From NCBI GenBank assembly GCA_020832405.1, contig JAFIET010000027.1, positions 1 through 41,644 on the forward strand: DNA of 41,644 nt. The letters run 5' to 3'. The notes under the pieces are model-generated. The model saw nothing but the letters and a program-made list of their open reading frames with translations. It had not been told where the DNA came from and searched no databases. The position numbers and the translations under genes were made by a program. This DNA is from Balneolales bacterium (GTDB taxonomy: Bacteria > Bacteroidota > Rhodothermia > Balneolales > Cyclonatronaceae). Shown piece by piece: positions 25,711-29,576 of the stretch (the stretch's first letter is position 1; each line of letters opens with the position of its first letter).

Positions 25711-26193
25711 ATGCGTCCGAAACCAAACCATCATTACCTCATGATACACGACTTTTCTGCTGATCACATAGATGATGTAACAAGAGTGCTCGATAGCGAA
25801 TACAAAAAAATAGGCGATATCTACCGGTTTATTTTGTATGCTGAAAATTCTGAAATGAAGTCGGTCGTGGAAATTAATATGGGTGTTGAACATGAGGGCA
25901 AGCAGGTTAATCTTGTTTCTGTTTATGCGCACAATGTATTTCTTCAGCTTCACAACTGCACCGGATTTGTAGCAAGTGATACCCTGCAGCAGGTTACCTT
26001 TTTTGGTAAAACAGGAGGCCAAACCACAGGCCTTATCATTGAGCGGAACGGTTCTGTGAATATGTATGCCAATGTTGACGATACATTGCTGAGCGGCGAT
26101 TTCACAAAGCTGCCACCGGAAATCATGATGGGTTCCATCGCCCTTTCTTTAACTGAATCCCTTGATTTTGAAGGGTTTTCATTTGATGAGTAA
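25711..26193 (+). CDS. Protein of unknown function upstream of ybeY
   Basis: 160 residues, soluble, no signal peptide. It is rich in predicted beta strands, acidic at the C-terminus, and ends in FEGFSFDE. I do not recognise a family. ATG 25711 and the in-frame ATG 25741 (starting MIHDFS) are both possible; the shorter form begins at the more regular sequence. It ends 6 bases before ybeY, so it is probably the first gene of the ybeY-smg-topo-like-DUF445 operon. That context hints at, but does not show, a role in RNA or DNA metabolism. Confidence 0.72.
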   Translation: MRPKPNHHYLMIHDFSADHIDDVTRVLDSEYKKIGDIYRFILYAENSEMKSVVEINMGVEHEGKQVNLVSVYAHNVFLQLHNCTGFVASDTLQQVTFFGKTGGQTTGLIIERNGSVNMYANVDDTLLSGDFTKLPPEIMMGSIALSLTESLDFEGFSFDE

Positions 26194-26199
26194 ATACCG

Positions 26200-26637
26200 T
26201 TGGCAATAGCTGAGTTTAATTTTTTTAACGAAACAGACCTGCGGCTTCCACTTGATGAAAAAGTAGCGCTGAAAATTACAGGCGCCGTTTTTCAGGGGGA
26301 AAATCGCAGTTGTTCCCTTTTGGAGATTGTTTTTGTGGATGATGCTGAAATTCTGCGTATCAATCAGGAGCACCTGCAGCATGATTATGTTACAGACATT
26401 ATCACCTTCCCCTACCATGAGGGGGAAGAAGACATCGAAGGGACTCTGTTTTGTTGCGCTACTCAAATTATCAGACAGGCAACTGAAGAAAAAATTTTGA
26501 CAGGCACGGAATTTGCAAGAATACTGATTCATGGCGTGCTGCATTTATGCGGCTATGAAGATGCACAGCCGGCGCAGAAACAGCGCATGACCGAAAAAGA
26601 AAATTATTATTTAAATCAGCTTGAATTTACAGTATGA
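26200..26637 (+). CDS. ybeY: Endoribonuclease / rRNA maturation factor YbeY
   Basis: 145 residues. YbeY is a metal-dependent endoribonuclease acting in 16S rRNA 3'-end maturation and ribosome quality control. The metal motif reads HGVLHLCGYED: H111 and H115 are kept, but the third ligand, usually His (GYDH), is Asp121, a form seen in Bacteroidota. VTDIITFPY (64-72) is the conserved strand (VTDVLSFP-type). The start is TTG 26200, 6 bases after the preceding stop. The stop overlaps the smg ATG (ATGA), so the two are translationally coupled. Confidence 0.93.
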   Translation: MAIAEFNFFNETDLRLPLDEKVALKITGAVFQGENRSCSLLEIVFVDDAEILRINQEHLQHDYVTDIITFPYHEGEEDIEGTLFCCATQIIRQATEEKILTGTEFARILIHGVLHLCGYEDAQPAQKQRMTEKENYYLNQLEFTV

Positions 26638-27083
26638 GAACCAACGTAATTGATCTCATTATTGAGATGATCCGGCAGGTAAGGGCCGGTCAGAAGCTCA
26701 AAGACATTGATCCAAAGTCTTTCGACGGCTACAACCGTGCGGAAACTTCCGCAGCTTACTCATGGATTCTGCATAAAAGCGACAGGGATAAAATAAGCAA
26801 AGAAGCCGGCGTAATTGACGCCCGACGCAACACCCGTATCCTGCACTCTGCAGAGCGGCTGATGCTTTCAACAGAAGCGCAGGGATATCTTATTGAGCTG
26901 TTTAACATCGGCGTTATCGATAATTCAGATATGGAAAATATCATCGAACACTGTATGATTACTTCCATGGAAAAAATTGATCTTGAACGGATGAAAGAAA
27001 TTGTGGCAAGTCTGGTTTTCGGAACCGGCGAAAAAAGCCGACCCAACTCCGTTTTCCTGCGCGGTAACGAGACCATCAACTGA
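26634..27083 (+). CDS. smg: Smg/DUF494 family protein
   Basis: 149 residues. The opening FDLI..-type helix (VIDLIIEMI) and the C-terminal block DMENIIEHCMI, KIDLERMKEIV and LVFGTG match Smg (DUF494), a family of unknown function encoded next to dprA and topA or a topA-like zinc-finger gene in many bacteria. It overlaps ybeY by four bases and lies 17 bases before a topoisomerase-like gene, preserving the smg-topA neighbourhood. The central part is basic and poorly conserved. Assignment rests on the C-terminal motif and context. Confidence 0.75.
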   Translation: MRTNVIDLIIEMIRQVRAGQKLKDIDPKSFDGYNRAETSAAYSWILHKSDRDKISKEAGVIDARRNTRILHSAERLMLSTEAQGYLIELFNIGVIDNSDMENIIEHCMITSMEKIDLERMKEIVASLVFGTGEKSRPNSVFLRGNETIN

Positions 27084-27100: not shown

Positions 27101-28501
27101 ATGCCCCGAAGCACGGGCGAAATCGTTTCCGGAACCCTGCTCATTGTAGAGTCACCGGTACTTGCGGCAGCTGTAAACCGCCTGAAGCTGCCGCAGATTA
27201 CGGCTTTTGCAACCCGCGGCTTTGCCTGGCTCCCAAAATCAGAACCCGGAACGGGCCGCCTGATTGCAAGAGCAAACCCGGATCTCTCCGGGGTCAGAAA
27301 AGCGCTGAAGGAGCTGCATCCGGCTTTTTACGATATCGTAATTGCAGCCGATGCTGACCCAAGCGGGTATTTCATTTCCCGCGCGGTTGCGAAATTTCTG
27401 GGGAAACGCGGCGGTATCCGTTTTGGTCAGCTCACCGCGATAAGTGCTGAGGCGCTGCAAAAAACCATTGCATCAGCTCACACGCAGCTTCCCTTTGATG
27501 ACGAACAGCTCCGGCGCCATTTTTTTATCCGGCAGCAGTACCGTTCATTCTTTTCTGAGCCGCTGCCGCTCATGCTCGCTTTAGGGCTGCTTTCCGGGCC
27601 TTTCCCGGCGCAGACCTACATCACCCCAAACAAAAAACACTTCATCCGAAGTCTGAAACCGGCGCTTCAATTGGCTGTAGTTTCCCTTAAGCTCCGGCCT
27701 TCACCCGCCGAAGGCCTGTACCCTGCTGTTCCGGCTCCGCCCTCTGCGGCTATTCTCCCCTATGTGCACGGTCAGCGTTTCTCACGGACGCAGGAGCAGC
27801 TCAGCAGGCTTTTCTGTTTTCAGGATGATGCCATTGGCCGCACCCTCATCAGCTATCCCCGAACGCAGTCGAACGCCTGGTACCCGGAAACCTGGGATTC
27901 GCTGGGTGAACAGCTGCCGCGCACTGAGCCGGGCGCGGTTCAGATTCCGGAACCCATGCGGGCAATCGCTCCGGCCGGCAGCGCACATGAGGCGCTTCAC
28001 GTGAGCAGCCTCAGCGACAACCCACATCAGATGCGCGCTTTCCTGAAAAAAGAGCTGCTCTTTCTTTATGAGCTGATTTACCGGCATACAAAAGCTGCGG
28101 TATGCATCCCTCCTTCTCTAAACAAGAATCAAATCCTGAAGGATGAACAGGAACGCTTATTTTGGACGGACCTGCCTTTTATGAAGGTTGAGGTGATACA
28201 GGTGAAGCCGGTTGTGACGCTTCAGCAGTTTATGCAAATGCTGCTCAATACCGGATGGGTTACCGCCGGGAGCCTTGGGGCCGCGACGGATGCGGTACTC
28301 GCTTCGGGACACATCACCCTTGAAACCCGGCCGGAACCGCACCTTCGGGTGAATAACAGCGCTTCGGCTCAGGAACTATGCCTTCGGGCGAAACGTACAC
28401 GCCTGATGATGGAAAACGCTGCCCGCCTGAAATCAGATGCAGCTTTGAGTCCGGCACAGTTCAACAAGCTATGTACCCAATTATTCAGGGATGAAAACTG
28501 A
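27101..28501 (+). CDS. Eroded type IA DNA topoisomerase-like protein
   Basis: 466 residues against roughly 750-870 for TopA. The fold can be followed. The Toprim opening LLIVESP has Glu17 (E9 of E. coli TopA), but the Lys of VESPAK is Ala. The Toprim acidic cluster is DADPSGY (84-90), keeping D84 and D86 while the Glu of D-x-D-x-E is Ser88. LGLLSGPFPAQT replaces the usual LSAGRVQS-like motif. LISYPRTQS (249-257) keeps the catalytic Tyr252 and Arg254, and AHEAL (295-299) keeps His296. The later GIGRPSTYA region appears as WVTAGSLGAA (386-395) without its Arg. There are no zinc-finger cysteines at the C-terminus. It sits directly after smg, where topA is often found. Whether it still cleaves DNA is doubtful; a DNA-binding or regulatory role is possible. 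The next gene overlaps it by 11 bases. Confidence 0.72.
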   Translation: MPRSTGEIVSGTLLIVESPVLAAAVNRLKLPQITAFATRGFAWLPKSEPGTGRLIARANPDLSGVRKALKELHPAFYDIVIAADADPSGYFISRAVAKFLGKRGGIRFGQLTAISAEALQKTIASAHTQLPFDDEQLRRHFFIRQQYRSFFSEPLPLMLALGLLSGPFPAQTYITPNKKHFIRSLKPALQLAVVSLKLRPSPAEGLYPAVPAPPSAAILPYVHGQRFSRTQEQLSRLFCFQDDAIGRTLISYPRTQSNAWYPETWDSLGEQLPRTEPGAVQIPEPMRAIAPAGSAHEALHVSSLSDNPHQMRAFLKKELLFLYELIYRHTKAAVCIPPSLNKNQILKDEQERLFWTDLPFMKVEVIQVKPVVTLQQFMQMLLNTGWVTAGSLGAATDAVLASGHITLETRPEPHLRVNNSASAQELCLRAKRTRLMMENAARLKSDAALSPAQFNKLCTQLFRDEN

Positions 28502-29576
28502 CAATCCGACTTTTGAATCGGTCTTCCGGAAACATCTTTCCGGCCGGCTCGCTGGTGAGGGCAAGTACGCCTCACCCAAACCCCCGCCCGAAAACACCCC
28601 GCCGACGGCGGGCCTGCGCCTGCTTATGGCCGTGCCCTGGCTGCTCGGAATTTTGTTTGCGTTTTCTTTTTGGTGGGATTTCGACGGCATAGTGCTCGAA
28701 ACCGGCTTTCAGCGCCTGCCGCTTGAAGGCGTGCTGCGCATCGTGAGCGTGAGCGGACTGATCGGCTTCCTCACCAACTGGATCGCCATCAGCATGTTGT
28801 TTTACCCGAGGAAGAAGCGGCCGCTGCTGGGTCAGGGCCTCATCCCGGCGCAAAAAGACCGCATCGCGAAACGGCTCTCCGCGGCGGTTGAGCGGGAGCT
28901 GATCAACCCCGAGCTGGTGAAAAAGGAATTCGTGGAATCGGGCCTGCTGAACCGCTACACCGACCTGCTAATCTGGGATGTGAAATCTCTGGTTGATGAT
29001 CCGGGCTTCCGGGAAGACCTCAGCAAGCTGATGCACCGCTACATTACCGAAGCTTTTGCGGACCCGGCCATGAAAGCACGGATCGTGGATGAAGCTGAGC
29101 AGGCCGTGCTCGAAAGCGTGCGCGAAAATAGATTTGAGACAACCGCCCTCAAAATGTACCTGTTGGTGCGTGGTAAAACGCTGCGGGAGATGCTGGCTGA
29201 TGCAGCCGAAAAACTGCCGGCCAAACTGACGCGGGCAACAGAGCCGATTGAGGAGCTGCTCAGCACCATCCCGGCCCGCATGCGCAAAGACCGCGCACAG
29301 CTTCAAAACCTCTTCCTGCTGGTGATTAACGGCATTGTGGATAAAATCGAAGTGCAGAAAATTATCGAGACCAACATCAACAGCTATGATGAGTCAAAAC
29401 TTGAGGCGGTAATCCGCGGCGCTTCCGATACGCAGCTGCGCTACATCAAATACCTGGGCGCGGTGATTGGCTTCGGTGGCGGCTTCGTAATCTGGCAGCC
29501 CATGCTCAGCCTTGCCTTTTTGATCACCGCCGGATTTGTGATTTGGCTTGCGGATCGGATTTTAGGCGGAGTCTGA
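28491..29576 (+). CDS. DUF445 family membrane protein
   Basis: 361 residues. After a Pro-rich N-terminal 40 residues there is one membrane segment (~45-62), then the DUF445 (PF04286) signature GFLTNWIAISMLFYP with a membrane hairpin, and LGQGLIPAQKDRIA. A long charged helical middle follows, and the protein ends with two membrane segments (LGAVIGFGGGFVIW onward). The family is related to YheB/YjiN-type proteins of unknown function at the inner membrane. The ATG lies within the last codons of the topoisomerase-like gene, implying coupling. It is the last gene of the ybeY operon, followed by a 351-base intergenic stretch. Confidence 0.88.
   Translation: MKTDNPTFESVFRKHLSGRLAGEGKYASPKPPPENTPPTAGLRLLMAVPWLLGILFAFSFWWDFDGIVLETGFQRLPLEGVLRIVSVSGLIGFLTNWIAISMLFYPRKKRPLLGQGLIPAQKDRIAKRLSAAVERELINPELVKKEFVESGLLNRYTDLLIWDVKSLVDDPGFREDLSKLMHRYITEAFADPAMKARIVDEAEQAVLESVRENRFETTALKMYLLVRGKTLREMLADAAEKLPAKLTRATEPIEELLSTIPARMRKDRAQLQNLFLLVINGIVDKIEVQKIIETNINSYDESKLEAVIRGASDTQLRYIKYLGAVIGFGGGFVIWQPMLSLAFLITAGFVIWLADRILGGV

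Follow-up and report, generated by a model that had tools for sequence, protein, structure and literature searches.

The protein described here resembles the type IA topoisomerases, and among the topoisomerase families bacterial TopA (TIGR01051; PF01131 + PF01751) is its best profile match. The Toprim Glu, the DxD motif and the Arg, His and Tyr residues of these enzymes are strictly conserved and are Mg2+-ligating or catalytic (PMC6101483, PMC7587558). In E. coli TopA, K13 is required for DNA cleavage (PMC6101483), the Y177S substitution abolishes cleavage, and deletion of the C-terminal domain (CTD) abolishes relaxation, of which T. maritima TopA keeps some (PMC7587558). E115 belongs to the Mg(II) acidic triad; our literature search retrieved no direct statement on the effect of mutating this residue alone. 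RNA cleavage by TopI of M. smegmatis does not depend on the Toprim Glu (PMC7587558).

Topoisomerase-related genes have also been found beside smg (DUF494). In E. coli, smg (L135 3492-3965) adjoins yrdD (L135 2921-3463), annotated as a short "putative DNA topoisomerase". YrdD is made up of zinc ribbons of the TopA-tail type. In Neisseria meningitidis, dprA-smg-topA are co-transcribed (PMC5817196). A literature search on topoisomerases of Balneolaceae or Rhodohalobacter retrieved no paper.

Locus and gene order

The analysed gene is located within a 41,644-nucleotide stretch of DNA of a Balneolales bacterium (contig JAFIET010000027.1; hereafter the window). Its product, designated TopL, is a 466-aa protein whose residues Glu17, Asp84, Asp86, Ser88, Tyr252, Arg254 and His296 are placed as described in an earlier note on this DNA. 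The frame, with an ATG start and a TGA stop, is intact. The gene forms part of a co-directional array in the order mannosyltransferase, 160-aa protein, ybeY, smg, TopL, DUF445 (Table 1). The junctions, which the earlier note had rightly called short or overlapping, comprise a 4-nt overlap (ybeY/smg), a 17-nt gap (smg to TopL) and an 11-nt overlap (TopL/DUF445).

Table 1. Coordinates of genes and active-site codons of the TopL locus in the window.
Feature	Position	Strand	Evidence or remarks
TMEM260-like O-mannosyltransferase, 1004 aa	22544..25558	+	PF11028, E 8.4e-61; constant upstream neighbour
160-aa protein, family-less	25711..26193	+	no Pfam match; conserved neighbour; first small operon gene
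ybeY (endoribonuclease)	26200..26637	+	PF02130, E 3.1e-26; constant upstream neighbour
smg (DUF494)	26634..27083	+	PF04361, E 2.8e-14
TopL, compact type IA topoisomerase-like core protein, 466 aa, without C-terminal domain	27101..28501	+	ORF, profile, model, 28 homologues
Glu17 codon, Toprim glutamate (E. coli E9)	27149..27151	+	invariant, 28/28
Asp84-Ala-Asp86-Pro-Ser88, DxD kept	27350..27364	+	E. coli R114, E115 replaced by Pro, Ser
Ile250-Ser-Tyr252-Pro-Arg254-Thr (E. coli Y319, R321)	27848..27865	+	Tyr and Arg invariant, 28/28
His296 codon (E. coli H365)	27986..27988	+	invariant, 28/28
DUF445 membrane protein gene	28491..29576	+	PF04286, E 6.2e-27

The 160-aa protein occupies the same place across the sampled order, and its matches in NCBIfam and PHROG are at chance level. 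YbeY of the window is strikingly acidic (net charge of about -10 per 100 aa), and in Balneolales both YbeY and TopL show faster divergence than most neighbouring proteins. TopL of the window is basic (pI 9.65) and several neighbours are acidic, a weak argument for the enzymatic interpretation favoured below, since the median pI of the TopL family is 6.3.

Homology and predicted fold

As a single sequence, TopL matched Pfam only below the cut-offs: PF01131 (Topoisom_bac) with E 1e-4 (21.8 bits, cut-off 35.1) and Toprim with E 0.08. A single-sequence search of genome contigs found no relatives of TopL; these were found by profile search. A family profile was built from the alignment of 13 homologues and compared with the PDB. 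It matched TopA of S. mutans (6ozw; E 5e-24; positions 5-457 of 467 aligned) and, also nearly end to end, TopA of T. maritima (2gai; E 5e-19), followed by E. coli TopA (about 1e-17) and reverse gyrase (about 4e-11). Homology thus extends across the Toprim and catalytic domains.

The AlphaFold2 model of TopL (pLDDT 90.4, pTM 0.88) covers the whole core, with the predicted four-domain toroidal fold of the type IA superfamily. Type IA cores were the top-ranked structures in searches with Foldseek and VIA-align, and 401 of 466 residues could be aligned to 6ozw (4.5 A, Z 24.9); TopB structures ranked below those of TopA. Since BLASTP of TopL against the full-length TopA of the same genome gave no significant match (E 0.49), homology rests on profiles and fold. 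From the profile alignments and the predicted model we conclude that TopL is a type IA topoisomerase homologue, as the earlier note had proposed; a profile search devoid of type IA similarity, which that note had named as a refuting outcome, did not result.

TopL shares with TopA the core fold, the Toprim Glu and DxD, the Tyr-x-Arg motif and the His, and differs from it in lacking the C-terminal Topo_C_ZnRpt or Topo_C_Rpt domains and, as detailed below, in most of the other active-site positions. Against the TopA equivalog model TIGR01051, four TopL members scored 20-62 bits, compared with a cut-off of 456 bits. Like TopB, TopL has the same fold, no large CTD, a residue other than Lys at the K13 position and a Pro after the catalytic Tyr (ISYPRT in TopL, ITYPRS in TopB); unlike TopB, it has no equivalent of Lys8, and its profile scores to this family are marginal. 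The topoisomerase module of reverse gyrase has the same core fold, but TopL shows lower similarity to it and contains no helicase module. TopL resembles E. coli YrdD in being a topoisomerase-derived protein encoded beside smg, but consists of the core only. An identification as a "Mini-A" topoisomerase was dropped, because Mini-A is a type IIB enzyme (PMC8185306). The TopL set falls below or near the present Pfam and NCBIfam cut-offs and is here named as a family.

Active site and reduced core

Of the 466 alignment columns, only 21 are invariant across the 28 TopL members collected (median identity 28%), among them all six catalytic residues: Glu17 (E9), Asp84 (D111), Asp86 (D113), Tyr252 (Y319), Arg254 (R321) and His296 (H365). 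If all columns are treated as equal, the probability of this occurring by chance is about 4e-9. The retained residues are exactly those described as strictly conserved, metal-ligating or catalytic in type IA enzymes (PMC6101483, PMC7587558).

The remaining active-site positions of TopA are mostly lost: (i) the position of K13 is hydrophobic in 28/28 members (Ile, Leu, Met or Val), and is Leu21 in the window protein, so that the earlier reading of the VESPAK Lys as Ala was wrong; (ii) the position of E115 is Ser, with Ala in two members (Ser/Ala in 28/28), and of the three residues whose conservation the earlier note proposed to examine, Tyr252 and Arg254 are invariant and position 88 is Ser or Ala; (iii) R114 is replaced by Pro (Ala in two members), H33 by Tyr or Phe, and R369 mostly by His, and R507 is mostly lost; (iv) the equivalent of TopB Lys8 is Ser in 28/28. 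The VESPAK Lys, DxDREG and GY...SAGR motifs of TopA therefore have no full counterpart in TopL. The G-strand groove segment from GY177 to SAGR195 is absent from nearly all members, with Y177 opposite a gap in 27 of 28. Arg66 and Trp43, which are invariant in TopL, are candidates for taking the place of K13, E115 and the Y177 groove. The loss of the LSAGR Arg had been recognized correctly, and it extends to deletion of the whole loop and of the GY(177) segment before it.

The TopL core is about 100 residues shorter than that of TopA. Compared with E. coli TopA, the Toprim insert between E9 and D111 comprises 67 instead of 102 residues, the R195-Q309 interval 77 instead of 114, and the interval from H365 to residue 480 79 instead of 115; we take the last two regions to house the domain II arch, as in the E. 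coli structure. Only Topoisom_bac and Toprim were matched, and the protein stops at the end of the core. The absence of a zinc-finger tail is thus real, but uninformative, because TopA of the same genome carries four Toprim_C_rpt repeats and likewise matches no zinc-finger family.

The catalytic set being invariant and the other residues being replaced uniformly, the term "eroded" used in the earlier note is misleading. Twenty-eight divergent proteins have dropped a lysine important in mutagenesis and the third acid, and kept Tyr, Arg, His, Glu and DxD. TopL may thus be regarded as a natural experiment on the dispensable parts of a type IA active site: either these residues are replaceable, or a topoisomerase fold has been recruited for a non-catalytic task.

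Distribution, paralogy and history

The genome of the window contains a second PF01131 gene, which encodes the full-length TopA (872 aa) that the earlier note had anticipated, and TopL is therefore a paralogue. The search of this genome with PF01131 revealed no third match and no TopB. TopA occurs in nearly every genome of the order and the short form additionally in a subset only. In the two genomes examined (that of the window and its sister), the full topA lies at another site than smg and ybeY and is flanked by unrelated genes, and none of the sampled genomes carries a full topA in the TopL slot.

All 28 members come from the order Balneolales. A profile search of 394 genomes of the phylum gave high-scoring short matches solely in this order; outside it the matches were weak, and those listed belong to ORFs as long as a complete TopA. 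A motif-based search across 84,980 species retrieved entries from Balneolota, among them Rhodohalobacter halophilus and R. sulfatireducens, and one metagenome-assembled genome labelled Chitinophagaceae (L096, LKNA01000010.1). The latter contains a Rhodohalobacter-type operon with a TopL that falls within the Rhodohalobacter group; the label is probably wrong. Comparison of TopL with viral contigs and plasmids, PHROGs and PADLOC yielded no match, so there is no sign of an origin from a mobile element or a defence system.

In the tree, TopL forms one clade, separate from all TopA of Balneolales. The stem leading to this clade is very long and joins other long branches, so that the tree gives no exact point of origin for TopL. 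Rooting inside the Balneolales TopA or beside TopB was considered and rejected, as TopL is kept as a separate clade.

Wherever enough flanking sequence is available, TopL follows ybeY or ybeY-smg, and DUF445 is located downstream in nearly all loci. In genus G048/G052 it is followed instead by a gene (L030 375-1484, L031 1784-2884) whose 366-369-aa product starts with a sequence reminiscent of a signal peptide and resembles a periplasmic binding protein. The order ybeY-smg-topL occurs in two Balneolales families. A third family has ybeY-smg-DUF445 without TopL and with short gaps, i.e. natural empty sites, and most other Balneolaceae-type genomes examined have ybeY-DUF445, also with short gaps and no TopL. 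In Rhodohalobacter-type genomes TopL occupies the same slot and smg was not found in the genome.

With the tree of the TMEM260-like mannosyltransferase as a species-tree marker, the presence of TopL needs at least four changes and that of smg one. The TopL tree broadly follows the families, and TopL divergence correlates with that of TopA (Spearman 0.78) and of the marker (0.64). Together with the constant slot, this fits vertical inheritance accompanied by repeated losses; exchange of the gene between members of the order as part of the operon is also conceivable.

The TopL frame is intact in the sampled members, contig-edge fragments aside, and dN/dS, computed for seven pairs, ranges from about 0.09 to 0.28 where dS, itself near saturation, is finite. 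TopL is thus under purifying selection in a fixed operon, in agreement with the view that the gene is maintained. Nevertheless, in most comparisons no other operon gene evolves as fast: between the window genome and its sister, identity is 50% for TopL, compared with 88% for TopA, 89% for the mannosyltransferase, 85% for Smg and 67% for YbeY.

Predicted function

We favour, with modest confidence, the interpretation that TopL, a type IA paralogue confined to this lineage and devoid of a CTD, acts as a Mg-dependent, single-strand nicking-closing enzyme; rather than decaying, the gene has probably been repurposed. The retained centre for tyrosine transesterification (Toprim Glu, DxD, Tyr-x-Arg and His) would use Mg2+ to nick a single strand transiently, through a 5'-phosphotyrosine link, and then reseal it. 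The substrate would be narrower than, or different from, that of TopA. Bulk relaxation would be poor, as expected from the effect of CTD removal in E. coli TopA, and TopL may serve a specific cellular task and not the global control of supercoiling. Catalysis is probably retained, judging from the six residues invariant at such low overall identity; the loss of K13, of the TopB Lys8 equivalent, of E115 and of the Y177-R195 segment, and an evolution far faster than that of TopA, would argue against it. A slowly evolving catalytic centre in a fast-evolving surround fits a protein that keeps its chemistry while its substrate or partner changes.

The same pattern would also fit a scaffold under relaxed constraint, apart from the fact that the nucleophile is invariant. 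TopL might accordingly be a non-catalytic nucleic-acid-binding or scaffold protein, whose conserved residues bind Mg2+ and phosphate without cutting. This possibility, the chief alternative, which we consider doubtful though worth weighing, draws on the fast evolution and on the loss of K13, E115, H33, R195 and the Y177 wedge, several of which are tied to cleavage or G-strand binding (PMC6101483, PMC7587558). However, the nucleophilic Tyr is kept in 28/28 members, as are the Arg and the His, and a Tyr hydroxyl is not obviously needed for binding alone.

More speculatively, TopL may constitute a distinct type IA subfamily that, in connection with the YbeY operon, performs transesterification on an unusual substrate, for instance RNA or a particular ssDNA structure, and manages without the canonical lysine, the third Toprim acid and the groove. 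We regard this as unlikely; if true, it would represent a minimal type IA active site whose function current mechanistic models would not foresee.

It is less likely still that TopL nicks and closes, or cleaves, RNA together with the neighbour-encoded RNA endonuclease YbeY. RNA can serve as a substrate of type IA enzymes (PMC7587558), and ybeY constantly precedes TopL, whether or not smg lies between them. The argument comes from the neighbourhood alone, however, in which DUF445 and the mannosyltransferase are about equally constant, and ybeY persists without TopL in many relatives.

The earlier note had placed TopL in an ancestral topA position, perhaps as a partner of Smg. The corresponding scenario, in which the topA of a dprA-smg-topA type operon decayed in place, would be in line with the smg-topA linkage in Neisseria (PMC5817196), which that note had rightly described as a general one, with smg-yrdD in E. 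coli, and with the ybeY-smg-topL order in two Balneolales families. We consider it very improbable: the TopA of the order forms a separate clade and is encoded at another locus where examined, no full topA was sampled in the slot, and the catalytic set has not decayed. A role with Smg is not supported either, because Rhodohalobacter-type genomes keep TopL without a detectable smg and many relatives keep smg without TopL. That TopL is a pseudogene or a chance open frame, as its weak single-sequence database match might suggest, is already refuted by the intact frames, a dN/dS well below 1 and the confidently predicted fold.

Within the class, DUF494/smg was detected in 34 of 245 genomes, and those listed all belong to the order of the window. 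The gene adjoins topoisomerase-derived genes in unrelated lineages, i.e. yrdD in E. coli, topA in Neisseria (PMC5817196) and TopL. This recurrent adjacency may hint at a functional link, though TopL and smg also occur apart.
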